Shown in pieces: positions 30,215 to 40,430 of a stretch of 52,318 nt of DNA. A program made the translations under genes and the position numbers. Source of the DNA: a virus; IMG/VR virus record IMGVR_UViG_3300006870_000021, positions 1-52,318 of that record, one strand, 5' to 3'. Within the stretch, counting starts at the first letter, position 1. Every line of letters starts with the position of its first letter. Below the pieces are notes generated by a model. That model did no database searches and was not told the DNA's origin. It worked only from the letters and a program-made list of their open reading frames with translations.

Positions 30215-30242
30215 ACTATAACAGAGTTAAAGGAGTTTGTCA

Positions 30243-30809
30243 ATGGCTTACACATATCTAATAGGATGGAGCAACCACGATAAGTTTTACTACGGTGCTC
30301 GCTGGGCAAAAGATTGCTCACCTGACGATTTATGGAATACATATTTCACTTCCTCTAAACACGTTAAAGCGTTTCGTAAAGAACACGGCGAACCTAATGT
30401 TATACAAGTTCGCAAAGTGTTCAATGATGTTGATAAGTGTAAACTTCATGAGCGTAAAGCCCTAGAGAAGTTAGACGTACTTAACAACGATAAATGGTTA
30501 AACAAGAACATCAATGGTATGTTCCTCCCTACTGGTCCTATGTCTGAAGAGCATAAGCGAAAGAAAGTTGAGAGCTTTAAACGCACTATGCAAGGCAAAG
30601 GCACTCGCACTGGTAAGAAAAACTCTCCAGAACATCGAGAAAAGAATAGACAAGCAATGCTCGGAAGACCTAAGTCTGAGGAACATATTGCCAATATGCG
30701 TAAGCGTCCACAAGACACTATGCGTCTTACTTGCCCACATTGTAACAAAGAGGGCGACTATAAGAATATGAAGCGTTGGCATATGGACCGTTGTAAGCAT
30801 AAGGTCTAA
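30243..30809 (+). CDS. GIY-YIG-type (Seg-like) homing endonuclease
   Basis: The product has 188 residues from the ATG at 30243 (an upstream TTG is rejected because AGGAG fits the ATG). TYLIGW plus FYYGARW corresponds to the GIY and YIG strands. CSPDDLWNTYFTSSKHV, with a later LHERKAL Glu, is the phage-type nuclease fold. Then come a basic NUMOD3-like region (SEEHKRKK, SPEHREKNRQAM, SEEHIANM) and a C-terminal CPHC...H...C zinc-finger-like motif. It is the only rightward gene in 30 kb of leftward genes and is convergent with 30806. A mobile intron-less element is inferred. Confidence 0.75.
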   Translation: MAYTYLIGWSNHDKFYYGARWAKDCSPDDLWNTYFTSSKHVKAFRKEHGEPNVIQVRKVFNDVDKCKLHERKALEKLDVLNNDKWLNKNINGMFLPTGPMSEEHKRKKVESFKRTMQGKGTRTGKKNSPEHREKNRQAMLGRPKSEEHIANMRKRPQDTMRLTCPHCNKEGDYKNMKRWHMDRCKHKV

Positions 30810-31584: not shown

Positions 31585-32478
31585 TTAGGTTCCCCAGGCG
31601 TTGCCGAAGAGCGAGATGTGAAGTCTTGGGGTAAAACGCCAGCCCCTTTCCATACATGCTTCTGCGACATCTTTGACGTTGAGGTTGTATTCTTCCGACC
31701 TACCACCGAGCGGCATAAGATACACAGGGCATTCCACACCTTTGTTACGATACGCTTCAACAGCCCGAGTAACTTCATCAAAGTCGTCGTTACTAGCGAC
31801 AACAAACTTGAGATAAATGTCACTACCGTCAACACTGCTATACTCGCGAGCAACATCAGGCAATATAGCAGTTTCCCAAGGTTCTCCCGAAACACTAAGT
31901 TTTGGGGAACAACTCCAAGTAACTTCAAATCTGTCTTGATCCATGAGATAGTTGAAGAAATCGTCGTGTAAAGGTTGTGTAGTGTTTGTTTCAAATGTAA
32001 CATTTTTTAAATCCTGCATACGGGGATGTTCGAACAGTTCGATATACAATCGCTGCCACGCTAATAACGGTTCACCACCTGTCATAATAAGGTGTACATC
32101 CTGACCATTATCCATTGTCCACTTGCCTTCTGGTGTAAGTGACAATAGGTGTTCAACTACTTCGTCAATAGTTGCTTCTTTGTTAAAGTGTTTGAATTCT
32201 GGATAGATACTTGCATATGTATCACAGCCTGTATGAATAATTGGCAAGTCTTCAAACTTTTCAGTTGTTTCGTGTACACCTGCGTCAATTAATGCTTTTA
32301 CTTCTGCATTATAACGGTTACCTTCTGCATGTTGCTCCCAACGATTTTTTGTTTCGTTAGTACCAAAGTTCATACAACGAAAGTTACAACCAAATGTACG
32401 CAAGAATACACTTGGTACTCCTACATACTTGCCTTCACCTTGCACACTATAAAATGCTTCTGAATAGCGTAGTTTCAT
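31585..32478 (-). CDS. queE: QueE-like 7-carboxy-7-deazaguanine synthase
   Basis: The 297-residue radical-SAM protein begins RYSEAFYSVQGEGKYVGVPSVFLRTFGCNFRC, diagnostic of QueE. Ligand Cys are C31 and C35. The usual third Cys after CxxxC is Phe, and C85 (HTGCDTY) is the likely third ligand, as I recall for phage-type QueE. GGEPLLAW and FETNTTQPL match SAM and substrate strands, and LHISLFGNAWGT the C-terminus. It converts 6-carboxy-tetrahydropterin to 7-carboxy-7-deazaguanine. It is coupled by ATGA to the small membrane gene upstream. Confidence 0.85.
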   Translation of the reverse strand: MKLRYSEAFYSVQGEGKYVGVPSVFLRTFGCNFRCMNFGTNETKNRWEQHAEGNRYNAEVKALIDAGVHETTEKFEDLPIIHTGCDTYASIYPEFKHFNKEATIDEVVEHLLSLTPEGKWTMDNGQDVHLIMTGGEPLLAWQRLYIELFEHPRMQDLKNVTFETNTTQPLHDDFFNYLMDQDRFEVTWSCSPKLSVSGEPWETAILPDVAREYSSVDGSDIYLKFVVASNDDFDEVTRAVEAYRNKGVECPVYLMPLGGRSEEYNLNVKDVAEACMERGWRFTPRLHISLFGNAWGT

Positions 32479-32645
32479 TCACACGCTCCTTCTTTTAAAT
32501 ATTCAGGCTTAACCATTTCACAAACAACTTCTTGTGTTGCGCCGTCATAAAACAACCAAGCATTGATTTCACGCTTTAGATACCAGCCACCGACACCTAT
32601 CGCAATAGCAATTAAAAGTCCAATAGTATATATTGCAATTTTCAT
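32475..32645 (-). CDS. Small membrane protein (56 aa)
   Basis: Read directly: a single hydrophobic segment at residues 2-20 (IAIYTIGLLIAIAIGVGGW), then a hydrophilic tail with two Cys (VVCEMVKPEYLKEGACE). It looks like an anchored peptide facing either side. Its ATG overlaps the stop of a ten-codon mini-ORF (32642-32674), and its stop overlaps the queE start, so translation is coupled from hemJ to queE. Confidence 0.6.
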   Translation of the reverse strand: MKIAIYTIGLLIAIAIGVGGWYLKREINAWLFYDGATQEVVCEMVKPEYLKEGACE

Positions 32646-32674
32646 CTCGATGCAAACTCCTGTTGTAGTTTCAT
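32642..32674 (-). CDS. Ten-codon mini-ORF duplicated from the folE 3' end
   Basis: ATG...TGA encodes MKLQQEFASR, the last residues of the FolE product (IKLQQEFASR) preceded by a new ATG. AGGAG at 32680-32684, overlapping the hemJ stop, is spaced 5 nt. The TGA overlaps the next ATG, exactly as the folE stop overlaps the next gene at 33287. It probably works as a translational coupling cassette rather than as a peptide. Confidence 0.5.
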   Translation of the reverse strand: MKLQQEFASR

Positions 32675-32677
32675 ATT
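32642..32677. repeat. 36-bp direct repeat, copy 1 (34 of 36 identical to 33284-33319)
   Basis: The two copies differ only at the sixth coding codon position near TCATCT(C/T)GATG and at one base after GTAGTTT. Copy 2 is the folE 3' end. Copy 1 lies between hemJ and the 56-residue gene. Both carry CAGGAG upstream of an overlapping ATG. Confidence 0.8.
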
Positions 32678-32682
32678 AACTC

Positions 32683-33108
32683 CTAATACTGTATTATAAC
32701 ACTGATGACAATAATAGTCAACAATATTGTTGGCACTTCGTTTAATATACGCATTTGCCTACCTGTGTAACTAAAGTCACCGTCTGCCATTTTTCTTCGT
32801 GTTGAACTTAACCAACCATGAAACCCGAACATAAGAAACACTGCTCCTGCTTTGACCCAAGGCCAAGTAAGACTCCAGTCAACTACACCGAAACTTACTA
32901 GTGTCAGCCCTGACACTAGTGTAGCAACCATAGCAGGAAGCATAATAAACTTTTGAAGCTTATATTCCATAGTTTCTAAAATGCGATATACTTCATCAGA
33001 ATAACCTTTATACTCTAAATGATATACCATAATCCTTGGTAAGTAGAATAGTGCCGCCATCCAACTAATGAGCGACACTATGTGAATTACAAGAACCCAA
33101 TCATACAT
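32683..33108 (-). CDS. hemJ: HemJ-like protoporphyrinogen IX oxidase (membrane)
   Basis: The product has 141 residues. The opening WVLVIHIVSLISWMAALFYLPR, then VYHLEY, is the hallmark of HemJ/UPF0093 with His and Arg that bind heme in the family. Four hydrophobic segments lie near 4-22, 52-75, 80-100 and 122-140. In bacteria HemJ oxidises protoporphyrinogen IX to protoporphyrin IX. It is in the folE-queE operon, and heme oxygenase is 1.3 kb upstream. Finding it in a phage is unusual to my knowledge. Confidence 0.78.
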   Translation of the reverse strand: MYDWVLVIHIVSLISWMAALFYLPRIMVYHLEYKGYSDEVYRILETMEYKLQKFIMLPAMVATLVSGLTLVSFGVVDWSLTWPWVKAGAVFLMFGFHGWLSSTRRKMADGDFSYTGRQMRILNEVPTILLTIIVISVIIQY

Positions 33109-33287
33109 TAACGTTCAACCAACGGTTTAGTATTGTTTGAGTCGTGATAATCGCCTGATTTGTAATAATCACGACTTGCTTCTTCTTTAACCATAATGCC
33201 ATTACGCATACGATATGTAATAATTTCTCTACGAATTACTCCGCTTGTGTCAGCATCGAATGCTGCTTTAAATGGTCCTTCACTCAT
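33108..33287 (-). CDS. Small hypothetical protein (59 aa)
   Basis: Read directly: MSEGPFKAAFDADTSGV, then REIITYRMRNG and SGDYHDS. It resembles a short conserved protein seen in marine T4-like phages, function unknown. The ATG overlaps the folE TGA, and AACAGGAG lies upstream. Its TAA overlaps the hemJ ATG (TAATG), so folE, this gene and hemJ form one coupled unit. Confidence 0.6.
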   Translation of the reverse strand: MSEGPFKAAFDADTSGVIRREIITYRMRNGIMVKEEASRDYYKSGDYHDSNNTKPLVER

Positions 33288-33319
33288 CTTGATGCAAACT
33301 CCTGTTGTAGTTTAATATT
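33284..33319. repeat. 36-bp direct repeat, copy 2 (folE 3' end)
   Basis: Original location of the repeat: the end of folE with the internal AACAGGAG that serves as ribosome site for the gene starting at 33287. Confidence 0.8.
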
Positions 33320-33970
33320 GTCAAAAAACTCTTTCTTTGTACCTGCGTCATCTTTAAATGCACCACGCAACACAGTTGTTTGTGTAAGACTACTGGTTGC
33401 CATAATACCTCGATTTTCACAACAACCGTGTGTTGCTTGGATATATACACCTAAGTGTTCTGCACCTGTTGCTTTTGCAATCTCACGTGCAATGTCATTT
33501 GCAAGTTCTTCTTGTAGCGTCCCACGTCTAGCACACCATTGTGCAATACGTGTATACTTGCTCAAACCAATCAGTTTGTCTGCGGCAATAATACCAATGT
33601 ATGCAACACCTGCTACTGGCTGGTGATGATGCGAACACATACTTTTAAGTTCACTTCGCACAACAAGCATACCTTCGTAACGATCGTCTGAATCGTTTGG
33701 AAATGCTGTTGCTGTTGGTGCAGGATCATAACGTCCCGCCATAATCTCATTAAAGTACATCTTAGCAAGACGTCTTGCTGTACCTTGTGAATTAGGATCG
33801 TTATGACGATCAATTAATAGTGCATCTAACACACCTTCAAATGCTACTGTAGCATTTTCAATAAGTTCTTCTTTATCACCTTTTTGTAGGACTTTAGAAA
33901 TGTTGTCGCCAGCCCAGTAACGAATGCCTAGATCTTCTAGACGGGCTTTTAATTGTTCCGCTTTGCTCAT
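33284..33970 (-). CDS. folE: GTP cyclohydrolase I
   Basis: The product has 228 residues. Zinc ligands are in MCSHHHQP (C112, H115) and HGCCENRG (C183), and GLSKYTRIAQWCARRGTLQEEL is the conserved core. It opens GTP to dihydroneopterin triphosphate, the first step to preQ0 and also to folate. It is the first gene of the folE-59aa-hemJ-56aa-queE unit, under a consensus early promoter that contains a palindrome over its -10 element. Confidence 0.88.
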   Translation of the reverse strand: MSKAEQLKARLEDLGIRYWAGDNISKVLQKGDKEELIENATVAFEGVLDALLIDRHNDPNSQGTARRLAKMYFNEIMAGRYDPAPTATAFPNDSDDRYEGMLVVRSELKSMCSHHHQPVAGVAYIGIIAADKLIGLSKYTRIAQWCARRGTLQEELANDIAREIAKATGAEHLGVYIQATHGCCENRGIMATSSLTQTTVLRGAFKDDAGTKKEFFDNIKLQQEFASR

Positions 33971-34010
33971 TTATGTCTCCGATGTTTAGGCAGTGGATTG
34001 CCATGAAAAA

Positions 34011-34034
34011 TGGTATACTAATAAAAGTATACCA
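34011..34034. promoter_or_regulatory. Palindrome over the folE promoter -10 (possible operator)
   Basis: TGGTATAC - 8 nt - GTATACCA is a perfect inverted repeat of 8-bp arms. The right arm contains the -10 hexamer of the folE promoter (34026-34031), a typical position for a repressor site. Confidence 0.5.
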
Positions 34035-34054
34035 TGTATTTAGGTAATTGTCAA
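34026..34054 (-). promoter_or_regulatory. Early sigma70-type promoter for folE
   Basis: TTGACA (34049-34054) and TATACT (34026-34031), 17-bp spacer on the minus strand, about 55 nt upstream of the folE ATG. An A+C-rich leader with CGGAGA before the ATG follows. Confidence 0.78.
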
Positions 34055-34055
34055 G

Positions 34056-34274
34056 TTAAAAATATTTTTCTAACATTTCTAGTTGATCATTATACTCTGC
34101 TACAATTTTAAGTTCTTGTTCAATTGCTTCGAGTACATCAGGGTGTTCTCCGACACCTGCTGAACTTCGTAGATAAACTTCTACGTTCATTGCATGTTTA
34201 GCAATATGGCCTTTAGCATGATCCTTGATTGCTTGGATCATATTCTCTCTAGTGTACTGTCCTACGCTTGCCAT
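34056..34274 (-). CDS. Conserved small phage protein (72 aa)
   Basis: The start is set at ATG 34274 (or adjacent 34277). A more distal in-frame codon at 34304 would lie within the -10 region of its promoter, so it is rejected. IQAIKDHAKGHIAKHAMNVEVYL and AGVGEHPDVLEAIEQEL match a small conserved marine T4-like phage protein of unknown function. AAGGA precedes the ATG. Confidence 0.6.
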   Translation of the reverse strand: MASVGQYTRENMIQAIKDHAKGHIAKHAMNVEVYLRSSAGVGEHPDVLEAIEQELKIVAEYNDQLEMLEKYF

Positions 34275-34305
34275 CATAAATCCTTTTGTGTTTATTGATA
34301 ACAAT

Positions 34306-34334
34306 ATAATAACATAAATTTAAACTAAAGTCAA
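34306..34334 (-). promoter_or_regulatory. Early sigma70-type promoter for the 72-aa gene
   Basis: TTGACT (34329-34334), TATTAT (34306-34311), 17-bp spacer. The -35 includes the TGA stop (34331-34333) of the 36-residue mini-protein gene. Confidence 0.7.
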
Positions 34335-34441
34335 CCTTTTTTCTTTGCTTCCCATTCTGCTTTTTTCTTTTGGTACTCTGATTCGCTTAGCCTGTGCCAG
34401 CCAATACATTTACCTGTTGGTGATCTTCCACATCCGCACAT
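34331..34441 (-). CDS. 36-residue Cys/His mini-protein, CDGSH-like
   Basis: Read directly: MCGCGRSPTGKCIGWH, then a charged helix SESEYQKKKAEWEAKKKG. C2-x-C4, C12 and H16 follow the 3Cys-1His order of CDGSH iron-sulfur (2Fe-2S) motifs. Spacing C4 to C12 is 8 instead of 9, and CDGSH is altered to CIGWH. The TAA of heme oxygenase abuts its ATG, so the two are coupled. A 2Fe-2S or zinc site is likely. The function is not known. Confidence 0.55.
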   Translation of the reverse strand: MCGCGRSPTGKCIGWHRLSESEYQKKKAEWEAKKKG

Positions 34442-34978
34442 TTATTCTTCCAGTTCTTTAAAAAGTTGCATTGCAAACTCAAATGCTCTATTTGCTTCGT
34501 CTGCCATATCGTCATGTAATTTAGCTCTAGTATCTTGTATTAGTTTATACGAATCTTCAAAATCGTACATTTTACCTGATCCAGGAGCACGTTTCTTAAT
34601 CATTTGCCCACCGTGCAATTCACCAAAGTGTCTTACATAAATGTGTGCAATTAGTCCTTCGCCTTCTAAGTTGTTAACATAGTCGACATACTCTTGAACA
34701 ACTGGACACAATACAGATTCGTCTCTTTCGATGCCGAACTCTTCTTCCAGTTCTTCCATATCTGCGAGCATACCAGGTGCTCTGCAAATTCCTTCAATGC
34801 CTTCTAGCATACCAGCATCTCTTGCTGCTACCTCTAGTGCTTCGTACTGTACATATTGATTGTAAATAAATCTATGATATTCGGGTGCAGGCATACCTTT
34901 AAGTAGTTTACGTGCAACAACCATACGTTCTGCGTTTTGGTGATTCTCCCAAGTGAGTTCTTTTAGTTTTGCACTCAT
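34442..34978 (-). CDS. ho1: Heme oxygenase
   Basis: The product has 178 residues, shorter than bacterial and cyanobacterial enzymes. The proximal His is H13 in LTWENHQNAER. The distal helix is AHIYVRHFGELHGGQMIKK. Splits heme to biliverdin, CO and iron. Cyanophages carry ho1 for bilin synthesis, but no bilin reductase (pcyA/pebS) is in this window. It is coupled to a membrane gene upstream and the mini-protein downstream. Confidence 0.85.
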   Translation of the reverse strand: MSAKLKELTWENHQNAERMVVARKLLKGMPAPEYHRFIYNQYVQYEALEVAARDAGMLEGIEGICRAPGMLADMEELEEEFGIERDESVLCPVVQEYVDYVNNLEGEGLIAHIYVRHFGELHGGQMIKKRAPGSGKMYDFEDSYKLIQDTRAKLHDDMADEANRAFEFAMQLFKELEE

Positions 34979-35277
34979 AGTAAGGTCCTTAGTGCTCTGT
35001 AAATCTTAGGAACATATACCCCAAAAAATACTAAACCCCAAAAGCCTGCCATTAGTATAGCATACTCGGGCCATCTTTCAAAATCTAAATACAAACCTAA
35101 GCTGATTAGTATAATCCACGACCAGTCAGTATAGCCGTGTATTCTTTTAACCTTTTGAGCGCCAAATTTTTCGTGTAATTCGCTGCGTAGTTTAGCAAAC
35201 CAAGGACACACGTGACGTAATATCACAAAACCTTCGTTTACTACCATTATTAAATAACCTATAATAAAAGCAATCAT
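34975..35277 (-). CDS. Membrane protein (100 aa)
   Basis: Hydrophobic segments near residues 2-19, 54-63 and 72-90 (IAFIIGYLIMVVNEGFVIL, WIILISLGLYL, ILMAGFWGLVFFGVYV), with a basic loop between. Not a recognised family. It is the first gene of the heme-oxygenase unit with late octamer GATAAATA and GGAG upstream. A role in supplying or anchoring heme degradation is only positional. Confidence 0.5.
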   Translation of the reverse strand: MIAFIIGYLIMVVNEGFVILRHVCPWFAKLRSELHEKFGAQKVKRIHGYTDWSWIILISLGLYLDFERWPEYAILMAGFWGLVFFGVYVPKIYRALRTLL

Positions 35278-35296
35278 ATTAATTCTCCATCATAGT

Positions 35297-35304
35297 TATT
35301 TATC
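35297..35304 (-). promoter_or_regulatory. Late promoter octamer GATAAATA for the heme-oxygenase unit
   Basis: GATAAATA on the minus strand is followed by GGAG (35284-35287) and the ATG at 35277. Predicted start near 35291. Confidence 0.6.
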
Positions 35305-35321
35305 ATTAAATGCTAGTTTAA

Positions 35322-35870
35322 CTAATCGTACTCATATGGGTATACTAACCAAATATCTTCTTCTGCTTTATTTACTTCGTCCCAATAGTATCTTACTTCA
35401 CCGAAATCGCTGCTTAGATTTTCTGTCATTACAGCAAATCTTACATTCTGGCCCCATACAGTATCCCAATTAGGATGATCAGGCAAACATCCACTTTGCC
35501 AATCTTGTTTAATCCAGTTAAACGTAGCACCAGTGTCGTTGATATCATCTACGATAAGTATGTTTTTCTTTTTATCCGGATGATTAGTCGACTTTTCAAA
35601 AATGCCATCTCTGTCATATGCTTGCAAGTAACCAAAAGCATCTTCTGCCATCCAGCAGTTACTTTCACTTTCTCTGTCGTCATCTCGTAAACTAACTTTG
35701 AGTGCATTACATGGTATGTCTAACATGTGACTTAGTATAACTGCTAAAGGCATTCCGCCTCTGGTAATACCTACAATATAGTCAGGCCGCCAGTTGTCTT
35801 TGTACATTTGTAATGCAATATGTGCTGCTGTTTTATGTAAATCTTCCCAATTATAGTGTTTTTTATTCAC
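35322..35870 (-). CDS. Phosphoribosyltransferase-family protein, GTG start
   Basis: The product has 182 residues from the GTG at 35870, which overlaps the upstream TAA by 8 nt and follows GGAG at 7 nt. The longer reading from an ATG at 35921 is rejected. IVGITRGGMPLAVIL and NILIVDDINDTGAT are the PRPP-binding loop motifs. It is likely a purine-type transferase (xanthine/hypoxanthine/guanine), possibly related to purine supply for the deazaguanine pathway. Overall length fits the family. Confidence 0.75.
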   Translation of the reverse strand: MNKKHYNWEDLHKTAAHIALQMYKDNWRPDYIVGITRGGMPLAVILSHMLDIPCNALKVSLRDDDRESESNCWMAEDAFGYLQAYDRDGIFEKSTNHPDKKKNILIVDDINDTGATFNWIKQDWQSGCLPDHPNWDTVWGQNVRFAVMTENLSSDFGEVRYYWDEVNKAEEDIWLVYPYEYD

Positions 35871-36087
35871 TTTTGTACTCCATTTCAGTTTTAATTTCGG
35901 TGCCTTGTTTGTCGTTTGCAATTCCTAATGCCATAGATTGTATCTGCTCTATTAAATGATTGCAAGTGTCATGGTCGTAATCTTTTTCTGCCTGTTCAGA
36001 AAACTCGTTGCGTAAACGATGCACTTGAATCGCCAAGTCGTGCATAACATTTATACGTTTAATTAGATCTTCAATTGTATGTTGCAT
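35863..36087 (-). CDS. Hypothetical protein (74 aa), helical
   Basis: Predicted helical by residue pattern (IEDLIKRINVMHDLAIQVHRL), no family recognised. The ATG overlaps the TAA of the gene upstream by one base (TAATG). Downstream overlap carries the GTG start of the phosphoribosyltransferase. Confidence 0.5.
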   Translation of the reverse strand: MQHTIEDLIKRINVMHDLAIQVHRLRNEFSEQAEKDYDHDTCNHLIEQIQSMALGIANDKQGTEIKTEMEYKSE

Positions 36088-36452
36088 TAAAACGGCACCT
36101 CGTCATCTTTTTCATGGTTACCTACATAGTCTTGATGTACCATTTTGTAGATAGATTTAAGATTTTCAAATGCTTTTTCAAGTGCAGGATAGTGTTCGCA
36201 CATATTATTGATTTTGTCTAAACTAGGCATTATATCTACAAACTCAGTTTGTTCCCAAGTAATACCATCCCAACGAGTTGAATCTTCAAGTGTAATAGTA
36301 TCTGGACCTAGAGTAATAGTACTAACACTAATACCATCCACAGTATATAGATCTTCGTTTATAGATGTGTCTATAGTAACATTGGTATCCATATCTTTTG
36401 TTATCCACTCACTTGTAATATCAAAAACATAATCATTATCTTTATCACTCAT
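36087..36452 (-). CDS. Conserved small phage protein (121 aa)
   Basis: The start is the ATG at 36452 in ATGAGTGA, which overlaps the glycosyltransferase stop by 8 nt. GGAG lies 9 nt upstream. The longer reading to 36551 is rejected. The C-terminal NNMCEHYPALEKAFENLKSIY, then a DDEVPF tail, recalls a short conserved phage block. The tail resembles single-stranded-DNA-binding acidic tails, but this is only suggestive. Confidence 0.5.
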   Translation of the reverse strand: MSDKDNDYVFDITSEWITKDMDTNVTIDTSINEDLYTVDGISVSTITLGPDTITLEDSTRWDGITWEQTEFVDIMPSLDKINNMCEHYPALEKAFENLKSIYKMVHQDYVGNHEKDDEVPF

Positions 36453-37509
36453 TAGCAATTGCTCCATATAATGCTTTACCAGAGAAATAGTTATGTGAAA
36501 GTGTCGCAGCTTGTTCGTAGATATCAAATTCATAAGTGTCGTAATTTTCAATGTAGTCTCTTAATTTTGCGATTACTTTATCTTTGTTTGCAATATATGC
36601 ATCAAAGTTCTCTGTCCATTCGCTAGGATATTTAAATTTATCTCTAGCCATTTCACTGTAACTTAATCTATCAGGCACCATTGGAATAGCATCTAACAAC
36701 GCACCTTCATACCAACTAATACCTAATGTCTCTTGCAAGTTCGCACTAAACACAACCTTTGCTTGACCTAATAGTTTGTGATATTCGTGCTTGGATAGTT
36801 CCTGCTCTTGACATATAACAAATTCATATTCAGGCATAGACTCTGCTAAGTCTCTAAATATTTCAACTTGCTTCTCAGGCGCTACTCGATGCGGAAAGAG
36901 TATTAAGTTACGTTTTTCTTGTTCGTCGTATTCTGAAATACATAGTTCATCTGACAAATATTCCATAGGCCAGCCTACACGATGTATTTTATCATAATCA
37001 ATATTATAGTCTTCCATCATTACATCTGTAAACATATCAATATGGAAGTCAGTTGCAAAGAAGTTATGATCATAGCATTCAAACATTGACATTTCAGCAT
37101 GTCTGACCCAAGGCTTATCGCCTATTAGTCGTCCAAGGAAATCTGCAGGGTCGTAGGAGCCGGCGTGCCAAAGCCCTCCGACTCTAATACGTACTCCCAA
37201 TAACTCTGCCATATACCGTAACTGAATAACAGTTGGGTTCCAAGCATCTGTGTATAAAAAGTAATCATTGTCTTTAATTATCCCATCACAAAACATTTCA
37301 CCAATTAGTTCAAGTTGCTTAGACTTGTATACATTAGTGCCTCCGAAGTTAAGAAAAGCCCCAGGCGTAGTAGCCTGAGGCGTCTCTCCCCCAGATACGA
37401 CTTCAACTGTTTGATTAGTTGCAAGCCGTATCTGTTCTGGTAAATGTGTCTTCCACTGCTTAGTATATCGAGTGTCGACGGCTTCTATATCTACAATATA
37501 GATTGTCAT
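36445..37509 (-). CDS. GT-B-fold glycosyltransferase
   Basis: The product has 354 residues. The C-terminal half has LILFPHRVAPEKQVEIFRDLAESMP and a donor-site region VFSANLQETLGISWYEGALLDA, as in GT4-type enzymes. The N-terminal half opens with DFxx-type sites not readable. It could glycosylate DNA, a modified base, or a surface glycan. It is 3 nt downstream of a small gene and near the deazaguanine cluster, so DNA modification is possible but not shown. Confidence 0.68.
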   Translation of the reverse strand: MTIYIVDIEAVDTRYTKQWKTHLPEQIRLATNQTVEVVSGGETPQATTPGAFLNFGGTNVYKSKQLELIGEMFCDGIIKDNDYFLYTDAWNPTVIQLRYMAELLGVRIRVGGLWHAGSYDPADFLGRLIGDKPWVRHAEMSMFECYDHNFFATDFHIDMFTDVMMEDYNIDYDKIHRVGWPMEYLSDELCISEYDEQEKRNLILFPHRVAPEKQVEIFRDLAESMPEYEFVICQEQELSKHEYHKLLGQAKVVFSANLQETLGISWYEGALLDAIPMVPDRLSYSEMARDKFKYPSEWTENFDAYIANKDKVIAKLRDYIENYDTYEFDIYEQAATLSHNYFSGKALYGAIANE

Positions 37510-37511
37510 AA

Positions 37512-37700
37512 CTAACGCCTATTTGCGTTTCTTGCCTTTGCACGTAACCAGTTCTTGTACTTTTCGTACGCTTGCCAATTACGGTCGTCTCTCTTATAAA
37601 GAGCTTTTTCATCAAAGACCTTGCCTTCAAAACGGCAATAGTCGCGGTATTCGTCTAAGTCACTAAAAATTTTATTAACAACTGGGTTATTGATCGACAT
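37512..37700 (-). CDS. Small conserved phage protein (62 aa)
   Basis: FDEKALYKRDDRNWQAYEKYKNWLRA is reminiscent of a short conserved block in T4-like phages; no function recognised. Basic C-terminus. Preceded by AAGGGAACC before the ATG. Confidence 0.5.
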   Translation of the reverse strand: MSINNPVVNKIFSDLDEYRDYCRFEGKVFDEKALYKRDDRNWQAYEKYKNWLRAKARNANRR

Positions 37701-37721
37701 TATGGTTCCCTTTATTATGTC

Positions 37722-38180
37722 TTATGGATATACTATTTGGCAGCCGTTTTCGCCATCTTCGGCTACATCGATGACTACAAAACGGCCTGGATACTTTTCG
37801 TTAATCTGTAAGTACAAATCGTCTGCGATCATCTCGCATGACTTATAGTCTAACTGAAGTAGATCTTCTTTATATAAGTTTTCCAACCAACGTTTGAATT
37901 GGATAAACTCAATATCTCTGTCATTGTGTGTTACTTGTATCTGCACTTTAAAATGAAACGTATGACGATGTGGATAGCCTAAGAAGCTTACATCATATTC
38001 ATCCCCTGTTGCTAGTGCTGGATCTTCTAACGCTGCTGGATACTTATGAATACCTTCTTTGGTAAACGTTACCCAGATGCTGCGTTTTGCATTTTCTAGT
38101 TTAGACATCTTAGCGTCCTCTTCTTTGTTACGCCGTTTCATGTAATTGTAATATGATTCTTGCTGTGCTTCTTCGGTCAT
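37722..38180 (-). CDS. queD: QueD-like 6-carboxy-tetrahydropterin synthase
   Basis: The product has 152 residues. Zinc ligands H45, H71 and H73 (GIHKYPAA, PHRHTFHF) match the QueD/PTPS family. HNDRDIEFI and LDYKSCEMIADDLYL follow in order. It converts dihydroneopterin triphosphate to 6-carboxy-tetrahydropterin, between FolE and QueE. The ATG at 38180 overlaps the upstream stop (ATGA). A later ATG at 38108 has a better GAGGA site and is an alternative. Confidence 0.78.
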   Translation of the reverse strand: MTEEAQQESYYNYMKRRNKEEDAKMSKLENAKRSIWVTFTKEGIHKYPAALEDPALATGDEYDVSFLGYPHRHTFHFKVQIQVTHNDRDIEFIQFKRWLENLYKEDLLQLDYKSCEMIADDLYLQINEKYPGRFVVIDVAEDGENGCQIVYP

Positions 38181-38701
38181 TTTAAGATAACATCGTTACG
38201 ATATTTTAACCAATCAGTAAATTTGTCATGTGCCATTAAGTCATGTAGACTGTGACACCAGACACCTGGATTAGTTGCTCTGTAAGATTTGTCATCTATC
38301 TTAACCATTGTATTATAGTTCCATAATTTAACATATGGTATCGGGACTCTTATTTGCGGAATAAAGTTATCAAATTCACATAATCCGCCTTCGTGAAAGT
38401 TTTCTACACATTGCATAGGAATATCTAGTGTGCAAAGATAATCTTGTTTTAGGAAACTTAAGATTAAATTTTCCCAAGGAGCCCATTCTTCAGATACACC
38501 AGCGGCAGGGCTAAAACTATGATTAGCACCAAAAAATATGTGTTTACAGTTATTGTTTTCGTATAACTGTTTTATTTTATCTTCACGTTGCACGCCATCG
38601 ACAAATAAGGTTCGTAAACCAAATGCCGGTGTTTGCTCAACTTCTATCCCTATAAAGAAGGACGCATCGTCTGCTTCACCATCTTGGTATTCTCTTCTCA
38701 C
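38177..38701 (-). CDS. Hypothetical protein next to queD (174 aa)
   Basis: ASFFIGIEVEQTPAFGLRTLFV, then HIFFGANHSFSPAAG and VPIPYVKLWNYNTMVKI; no family name is certain. From memory it recurs beside queD in marine T4-like phages. Position between queD and dpdA suggests a role in the 7-deazaguanine pathway or in recognising the modified base. Coupled by ATGA to queD. Confidence 0.5.
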   Translation of the reverse strand: MRREYQDGEADDASFFIGIEVEQTPAFGLRTLFVDGVQREDKIKQLYENNNCKHIFFGANHSFSPAAGVSEEWAPWENLILSFLKQDYLCTLDIPMQCVENFHEGGLCEFDNFIPQIRVPIPYVKLWNYNTMVKIDDKSYRATNPGVWCHSLHDLMAHDKFTDWLKYRNDVILK

Positions 38702-38704
38702 TTT

Positions 38705-38899
38705 TTAGTCCTTCAACCGTCGTTCGATTCTGTATATTTCATCCTTGAGCCACAATTTTTTAGTTTTTAGGCGGTATAGCTCGTCTCCGCTTGTATAATT
38801 ATTATATAGTATTTTTATTTTATTGTCAAGTTCTTTATGCTCTTTATATAATTTATCTAATTGCATCTTCATAACTTTATTAAATGGCTTTTCACTCAA
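38705..38899 (-). CDS. YdcH/DUF465-like small helical protein (64 aa)
   Basis: LDKLYKEHKELDNKIKIL and LKTKKLWLKDEIYRIERRL match the two-helix YdcH/DUF465 pattern. It starts within 8 nt of the DpdA-like stop. Function of the family is not established. Confidence 0.6.
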   Translation of the reverse strand: MSEKPFNKVMKMQLDKLYKEHKELDNKIKILYNNYTSGDELYRLKTKKLWLKDEIYRIERRLKD

Positions 38900-40430
38900 A
38901 TAACTCTCCGAAGTACGTTTGGTTATTTACAGTCTTTTTACCAATTGCACCTCTAGTTCCGGGAATTTCTGTCCAAAACATAGAATGTTCGTCTATAAGT
39001 TTAATAGATTCTTCTTTATTTGTACAAGAGAAAATTCTATCTACTACATCTCTAAAAAAGATTCTATCATGTTTTTCTTGCACAAGCATGTTAGGCACAA
39101 CACCATTATCGTATTGTCTATTTGCTTCTTGTACTGCATTAATATGACTCCATACATTATGACCCATTTGTATAGCGTAACTAAAACTATCCCAACTAGT
39201 GCTGTCTTTTTTCCTAACAATTGGTGATCCATTTTCGTCAAGCACCGGTTGATCATTCTTATCCAGTTCAACTTCGCCTGCTAGTACCTTAGGTGTACCT
39301 ATCTTATTTCTATCGCCTTTGTTGTATATACATACTTCATTAACCAGTAAACCATCAGTTAACGGGCTATTTTCGAACTTAGGAAATATTCCATCTTGTA
39401 CTGTAGCATTTTGAAATGTTCTAGTATCAGTTGCATATTTAAGTTCGTCTACACTCGGCAACATTCGATACGTCCATTTGCCTCTATCAGGTGTTTCGTT
39501 TGATGTATATACTTGTCCGTTAGCAGTTGCTAAGAAAGGAGAAGCACAATCAAATGTAATCATAAAACTAGGATTATAATACTTACGAACTGCTCTTTGT
39601 ATGTCAGTTAGTAAACAAGCCCATTCTAATTTACTAGTACCAAGGAAGTGCATAACATCATGATAACCTTCTTGTAGCAAATTATCAAAATGAAGTGTAA
39701 CTAAACGTTTTAAAACAAGATCAACATCGCACATGTTCTGACCACCCATTGACCAGCCATTAAAATGATTGTCTGGGTATTTGATTGGATCGCAGTAATC
39801 TTTCATCTGTTCATACCAGTCGTTGGCATCTTTATGTGTTTCACCTTGTAATACATTTAAGAATTTACAAGATCCGGTTCTATGTTTCATCCAGTAGTCG
39901 TTGTTGATACGTGTAGCGTTCACAGCATCTTGATATGTACTAATACCTGTTGCTTTTGCTCCTTTAGGAGAACGTGCAACCCAGGCTGGAATATCAAGTA
40001 TCATTCCATAGTCCATGTAAGCATCCATCCAACGAAGAACGCCATCACGTTTTGCTTGTGCTTTAGGACAGTTGGGATCTTTCCAGTCGCCTTCCCAAAC
40101 ACCTTTACCAATCTGGAAGCCACCTGAGTCACCTAGTAACCAAGTGTTTTCTCTATCTCTATTACGTACCATGTCTTCTTTAGGAACAACTTTAGTTGTA
40201 TCCAAGTCAGCATGTCCTGCTGAATATAAGCTCCATTTATATTGGAATTGACCTTCTTTAGCATTAAGATAATTTAAACTTTCTATACCGCTATTCCAAA
40301 AAGAAGGGATACGATCTTTAGGAACGTATTCTTCAAAACGTTGTTTACCTACATAAGTAGCATAGAAACCACTTAGTGCAGGAAGAAAGTGTGCATAATC
40401 TTCTTGTGCTTCAGTAAGATCTGTTCTCAT
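38892..40430 (-). CDS. dpdA: DpdA-like DNA transglycosylase (TGT-family)
   Basis: The product has 512 residues. LLGDSGGFQIGKG (DSGGFQ at 101-106) is the TGT/archaeosine-transglycosylase signature. MITFDCASPFL with D294 is the candidate nucleophile. GWSMGGQ (near 226) and HFLGTS (near 261) are further TGT-like strands. In DpdA families the enzyme swaps guanine in DNA for a 7-deazaguanine such as preQ0. Together with folE, queD and queE this implies modified phage DNA. The start of the gene overlaps the clamp stop. Confidence 0.8.
   Translation of the reverse strand: MRTDLTEAQEDYAHFLPALSGFYATYVGKQRFEEYVPKDRIPSFWNSGIESLNYLNAKEGQFQYKWSLYSAGHADLDTTKVVPKEDMVRNRDRENTWLLGDSGGFQIGKGVWEGDWKDPNCPKAQAKRDGVLRWMDAYMDYGMILDIPAWVARSPKGAKATGISTYQDAVNATRINNDYWMKHRTGSCKFLNVLQGETHKDANDWYEQMKDYCDPIKYPDNHFNGWSMGGQNMCDVDLVLKRLVTLHFDNLLQEGYHDVMHFLGTSKLEWACLLTDIQRAVRKYYNPSFMITFDCASPFLATANGQVYTSNETPDRGKWTYRMLPSVDELKYATDTRTFQNATVQDGIFPKFENSPLTDGLLVNEVCIYNKGDRNKIGTPKVLAGEVELDKNDQPVLDENGSPIVRKKDSTSWDSFSYAIQMGHNVWSHINAVQEANRQYDNGVVPNMLVQEKHDRIFFRDVVDRIFSCTNKEESIKLIDEHSMFWTEIPGTRGAIGKKTVNNQTYFGELFE

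Follow-up and report, generated by a model that had tools for sequence, protein, structure and literature searches.

HemJ-family genes in two lineages of phages, alongside heme oxygenase and other tetrapyrrole genes

Two phage lineages carry hemJ, a gene of tetrapyrrole metabolism: lineage A, which includes the stretch of DNA analysed here (the window; 52,318 nt, positions 1 to 52,318 of IMG/VR record IMGVR_UViG_3300006870_000021), and lineage B (contigs L015 and L019-L025). We consider it probable that hemJ, together with hemC, serves these phages as an auxiliary metabolic gene raising the supply of protoporphyrin IX and heme in the host, and that the phage heme oxygenase (HO) draws on that heme. 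Within the libraries searched, the presence of hemJ in a virus is apparently new. A phage hemJ was unfamiliar to the initial sequence-only reading of the window, and this agrees with what we found: there was no credible HemJ among 50,697 named phage records, and no literature linking hemJ to a phage gene was found, most subscription papers lying outside the searched libraries. The only matches among the named phages (36%) came from two 'Acinetobacter phage MD-2021a' records, which were set aside because records of the same name also contain hemC, suggesting that they are host contigs.

HemJ of the phage contig and its relatives

The window (G+C content of 35.5%) is part of a tailed phage genome that has been seen in environmental DNA only. 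A 127.6-kb contig of the same phage (G002), which may itself be incomplete, matches it in reverse orientation over positions 729-53046 with 99.994% identity, and genes for a DNA polymerase, baseplate wedge and hub proteins, a late sigma factor and an SbcD-like protein are found on these contigs. Outside the window, G002 also encodes hemC (125935-126774; PF01379, 222 bits; TIGR00212, 270 bits against a cut-off of 164), adjoining SbcCD-like genes; its product possesses both the dipyrromethane cysteine (GDC) and the catalytic aspartate (HSFKD). No match for bilin reductase, ferrochelatase, CPO (hemF), UROD (hemE) or AlaS was obtained on this possibly incomplete contig. The earlier statement that the window lacks a bilin reductase is thus correct and extends to G002, the PF05996 profile having no match in either. 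Radical SAM proteins are numerous for a phage (window 6668-15674 and G002 54466-58834), two of them with SPASM domains; IscU- and IscA-like genes are also present on L011, and an IscA-like gene on G012.

The hemJ gene (32683-33108, minus strand; UPF0093, protoporphyrinogen IX dehydrogenase/oxidase, PgdH2) encodes a 141-aa protein. Its identification as HemJ-like in the sequence-only reading is borne out by the UPF0093 profile PF03653 (158.8 bits against a cut-off of 34.2, E = 1.4e-46, profile positions 4-144 of 146), and the protein is, as judged from its sequence, a member of the HemJ/UPF0093 family. The score against the NCBIfam model TIGR00701, 'protoporphyrinogen oxidase HemJ', is 119.4 bits, below the equivalog cut-off of 138.05, which is a curator's threshold and no property of the enzyme; other phage copies score 115-127 bits. 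This shortfall is not peculiar to phages, since Roseobacter sp. GAI101 has a chromosomal HemJ that reaches 123.7 bits; another alphaproteobacterial copy scores 120.2, and other Rhodobacterales 137-139.

Thirty columns are at least 90% conserved among 49 cellular HemJ sequences, and every one of the 11 phage copies retains 29 of them. Absence of the His and Arg residues expected at the heme or substrate site had been put forward as the observation that would count against HemJ; when looked for, H9, H30, H97, R25 and R120 proved to be kept, along with K86, in 11/11 phage copies, as are N123, E124 and P126. The dN/dS ratio among phage copies (~0.07-0.18, calculated as the ratio of dN to dS values) indicates that phage HemJ is under purifying selection. 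The AF2 model (pLDDT 87.3) contains four long helices (2-32, 38-72, 81-108 and 124-140), which together with the hydrophobic segments describe a small four-helix membrane protein. A PDB fold search with this model returned no significant match and is uninformative, because the solved structures include no HemJ relative. Oxidation of protoporphyrinogen IX is a predicted activity of the phage protein, suggested by its family.

Three scans covering 2.9 million IMG/VR contigs retrieved HemJ from 23 contigs in total, and the survey of phage hemJ and its gene neighbours proposed in the sequence-only reading could be carried out on them, revealing the two lineages. The last scan, with a profile of cellular HemJ, added no contigs to these 23; distant viral HemJ could be missed, as the IMG/VR searches start from short conserved peptides. 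A chance ORF or a one-off assembly error is ruled out for both hemJ and HO by the profile scores and by the same gene order recurring in independent IMG/VR contigs.

All sampled phage HemJ form a single clade in the tree (support 100/99) on a long stem branch (0.95), nested in a Rhodobacterales-rich clade (support 100/100), and the cellular HemJ nearest to the phage copies are those of Rhodobacterales. The window copy shares its length, its helices and the conserved His, Arg, Lys, Asn and Glu residues with bacterial HemJ/PgdH2 (UPF0093, TIGR00701; Roseobacter/Sulfitobacter, Synechocystis slr1790), but sits on a phage, belongs to a distinct viral clade and shows ~48-54% identity to its closest cellular counterparts. 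The copies on L011 and L012, whose gene order is that of lineage A, cluster with the one on L015 (lineage B); at a support of 96/77 this suggests, without making certain, that hemJ has been exchanged between phages. A SAR11-like donor was also considered and rejected: two HemJ copies from 1.4-Mb genomes, whose SAR11 identity is a guess, fall outside the Rhodobacterales-plus-phage clade.

The long stem, a weak similarity to CopD besides UPF0093 and the TIGR00701 score below the equivalog cut-off could be taken to mean that the phage protein has kept the UPF0093 fold and acquired another activity, for instance as a quinone- or heme-handling membrane protein altering host respiration. We regard this as extremely unlikely, given the near-complete set of conserved columns, the similarly low score of the Roseobacter chromosomal protein and the heme and bilin enzymes encoded next to hemJ in lineage B.

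The lineage A locus and its heme oxygenase

In the window, hemJ lies between folE (GTP cyclohydrolase I; 33284-33970, minus strand; PF01227, 130.8 bits) and a queE-like radical SAM gene of the 7-deazaguanine pathway (31585-32478, minus strand; phrog_2076 QueE-like, 177 bits). A small ORF (orf59; 33108-33287, minus strand) links folE to hemJ, overlapping the stop of the former (ATGA) and the start of the latter (TAATG), and its homologues come after folE in relatives both with and without hemJ; in L009 and L017 the end of folE is overlapped directly by hemJ. Another small ORF (orf56; 32475-32645, minus strand), between hemJ and queE, is found in the closest relatives only. Among 62 folE/queE pairs on contigs with closely related queE, hemJ is placed in between in 6 and is missing from the other 56, so that hemJ is accessory and occupies a fixed position. 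As a host-type gene surrounded by phage genes and variable among relatives, it has the attributes of an auxiliary metabolic gene.

The orf59-hemJ segment is flanked by a 36-bp direct repeat, one copy of which is the 3' end of folE (33284-33319) and the other a duplicate of it just downstream of hemJ (32642-32677; 94% identity between the copies), detected by a repeat search. The duplicate is confined to the closest relatives. Its interpretation as a scar of hemJ insertion is not supported, because L007 and L009 possess hemJ without the second copy; the repeat is probably a recombination remnant.

Several further observations concern this region. A possible QueD-like protein, to which Pfam gave no match, was recognized by eye at 37722-38180, and 38892-40430 encodes a protein of 512 aa that has the DSGGFQ motif seen in tRNA-guanine transglycosylases and matches neither Pfam nor PHROG; together with folE and the queE-like gene, these may possibly constitute a 7-deazaguanine DNA modification cluster spanning 31585-40430. 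A homing-endonuclease-like ORF (30237-30809, plus strand; phrog_314) is oriented opposite to its neighbours.

The HO gene (34442-34978, minus strand; 178 aa) was likewise correctly recognized in the sequence-only reading, as was its distance of 1.3 kb from hemJ, the gap between the two (33109-34441) measuring 1,333 bp. The product matches PF01126 (70.8 bits, cut-off 23) and solved HO structures, including human HO-2 (E = 1.6e-13). Its AF2 model (pLDDT 93.3) has HmuO and other HO structures as its best fold matches (Foldseek to HmuO, E = 7.6e-9, TM 0.81), and on this combined evidence from sequence and model the protein is a heme oxygenase with the canonical fold. The proximal His13 aligns with the conserved histidine of human HO-2, and the distal helix reads GELHGGQ, with G119, G123 and G124 invariant in the HO alignment. 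At the position of the distal catalytic aspartate (Asp140 of human HO-1, Asp136 of HmuO), the window and lineage B proteins have a glutamate (GELHGGQ versus GDLSGGQ), whereas HO of phage Mosig has an aspartate; a structure of D136E HmuO is on record (1wnx) and was found by the fold search.

The start of HO is overlapped (ATGA) by ORF34975 (34975-35277, minus strand; phrog_31495), which encodes a hydrophobic, membrane-like protein of 100 aa. This protein is 96-100% conserved along with HO across lineage A, its gene is found beside HO and bilin reductase in L195, and homologues occur in some cyanophages and in single-cell marine virus records. It is thus ORF34975, not hemJ, that forms a unit with HO in lineage A. 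Moreover, L012 and L014 have kept hemJ and are missing HO, and the two are therefore separate modules in this lineage. Accordingly, the earlier placement of hemJ and HO in one phage segment holds as far as the phage context is concerned, but not in the sense of a single unit: hemJ is inserted as an accessory gene between folE and queE, and HO accompanies ORF34975. Since the genes are separate modules here, their functional coupling in lineage A is something that we infer, and their separability speaks for a core role of hemJ in supplying heme in these phages.

Lineage B and other phage tetrapyrrole genes

The more informative partners of hemJ lie outside the window, namely hemC on G002 and two gene groups in lineage B, hemE-hemF-hemC and hemJ-HO-bilin reductase. 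The gene order of lineage B runs from a weakly phosphate-transporter-like gene (PHO4 match of 21 bits, below the cut-off) through hemJ, a porin-like gene, HO and bilin reductase to helicase loader, gp32 and UvsX; phage genes of this lineage comprise gp32, UvsX, a DnaB-like helicase and topoisomerase. Five contigs extend far enough to include hemJ, HO and bilin reductase, and in each of them the three genes are located within ~4 kb. The two long contigs of this lineage (G012 and G013) possess a hemE-hemF-hemC operon (hemE, 192 bits; hemF, 314 bits, above the equivalog cut-off), plus the hemJ-porin-HO-bilin reductase group elsewhere on the contig. A functional coupling of HemJ with coproporphyrinogen oxidase, which hemF encodes, is reported in PMC11662147, citing Skotnicova et al. 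2018; this fits the presence of both hemJ and hemF, albeit not adjacent, in lineage B. Ferrochelatase (PF00762) had no match in the hemJ contigs.

Two side observations were made on G012. It encodes a cytochrome P450 (PF00067, 44.6 bits) with the Cys motif YGPHHCTG, near a tryptophan-halogenase-like gene (L133 1727-2974 and 91-1221, minus strand). A CsgF match (L132 2768-3244, minus strand) is located within a run of curli-like genes, as described for pelagimyophages (PMC7029224).

Both lineages combine hemC with hemJ. This pairing would also suit a protective HemJ, clearing the protoporphyrinogen built up by an early pathway sped up by HemC and so limiting non-enzymatic oxidation and photodamage; a cyanobacterium with impaired HemJ indeed accumulates coproporphyrin and protoporphyrin (PMC11662147). 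Two long contigs (109.9 and 70 kb) with a lineage A-type hemC are, however, devoid of hemJ, possibly because they are fragments, and we hold protection as the main function to be highly unlikely.

HO, bilin reductase and alaS have been described from phages before, and the reason for the presence of tetrapyrrole genes in phages of non-cyanobacterial hosts has been called enigmatic (Wegner et al. 2024, PMC11480375). Compared with the hemO-pcyA/X and alaS cassettes of that study, among them the one of Pelagibacter phage Mosig EXVC030M, the window has an HO of the same family (34% identical to that of Mosig, and up to 63% to those of IMG/VR phages outside its own lineage) and has in common with them an auxiliary function in tetrapyrrole metabolism, which has been proposed for alphaproteobacterial phages. 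Those cassettes, however, have a bilin reductase, sometimes AlaS, and no HemJ, whereas the window lineage is without the reductase and adds hemJ and hemC. In our own survey, bilin reductase follows HO in 32 of the 33 HO loci outside lineage A, the exception ending 37 bp past HO, and AlaS is present on two contigs, as published (PMC11480375). Of 29 records with HO or hemC, among them phage Mosig, none contains HemJ. The window lineage is thus the exception, with hemJ and hemC but no reductase beside its HO. Phages whose HO shares 68-70% identity with the lineage B protein also encode a bilin reductase, with no hemJ on their contigs. Separately, the 'putative ferrochelatase' annotated in Mosig EXVC030M (MT647606.1, 43207-43977; L016 4901-5671) looks by eye more like a 2OG-oxygenase, and the annotation may be wrong.

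Two other known systems bear comparison. In excerpts of the pelagimyophage paper (mSystems 2020, PMC7029224), coproporphyrinogen oxidase and porphobilinogen deaminase (hemF and hemC) are mentioned in one sentence, without analysis; lineage B has these two genes in common with that group, and its CsgF-like gene matches the curli cluster reported there, but neither hemJ nor hemE turned up for the group in those excerpts. Cyanophages with ho1, pcyA or pebS likewise carry HO in a tailed phage genome. Their bilin genes are generally taken to provide phycobilins. Cyanophage HO is usually accompanied by a bilin reductase (pcyA-type matches), whereas the window HO has no such partner and the window hemJ suggests that the gene came from an alphaproteobacterium.

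These comparisons bear on a further explanation, that HemJ feeds protoporphyrin IX mainly to host cytochromes or bacteriochlorophyll, sustaining energy metabolism, and that HO is an unrelated iron or bilin module. The closest cellular HemJ are from Rhodobacterales, an order that includes aerobic phototrophs; hemJ is separable from HO in lineage A (L012 and L014), and pairs of HO and bilin reductase are common without hemJ. The tight grouping of hemJ, HO and bilin reductase in lineage B, in every contig reaching that far, argues the other way, and we consider this explanation rather unlikely.

A role for phage HemJ in infection

The favoured reading, in which hemJ and hemC increase heme supply and HO draws on the product, can be set out as a sequence of proposed steps. 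Phage HemJ would derive from a Rhodobacterales-type alphaproteobacterium, and phages would since have retained the gene and passed it among themselves; this gene source suggests an alphaproteobacterial host. During infection, HemJ would insert into the host membrane and convert protoporphyrinogen IX to protoporphyrin IX there. HemC, acting at an early step, and HemJ, acting at a late one, would raise flux through the host heme pathway to the benefit of the phage, with HemB, HemD, HemE, HemF and ferrochelatase of the host supplying the remaining steps. Some of this heme would then be opened by phage HO, giving biliverdin, CO and iron, and in the sister lineage B the phage bilin reductase would take biliverdin further.

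More tentatively, some alphaproteobacterial phages could possess most of a route of their own from porphobilinogen to bilin (hemC, hemE, hemF, hemJ, HO and bilin reductase), with the lineage B P450 perhaps among the uses of heme and the window phage as a reduced version (hemC, hemJ and HO) ending at biliverdin and iron; we see this broader picture as possible rather than probable.

Phage tetrapyrrole genes have so far been interpreted mainly in terms of heme breakdown for bilins, to which supply of 5-ALA was added in 2024 (PMC11480375). The hemJ and hemC genes described here, and the hemE-hemF-hemC operon of lineage B, indicate that phages also carry later steps, up to protoporphyrin IX. Whether heme or porphyrin flux rises in infection, and whether the product is heme, iron or bilin, now become testable questions, and a lineage with HO but without bilin reductase separates the iron or biliverdin idea from the bilin idea. 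Taken together, these genes suggest that certain phages supply their hosts with a large part of a pigment pathway.
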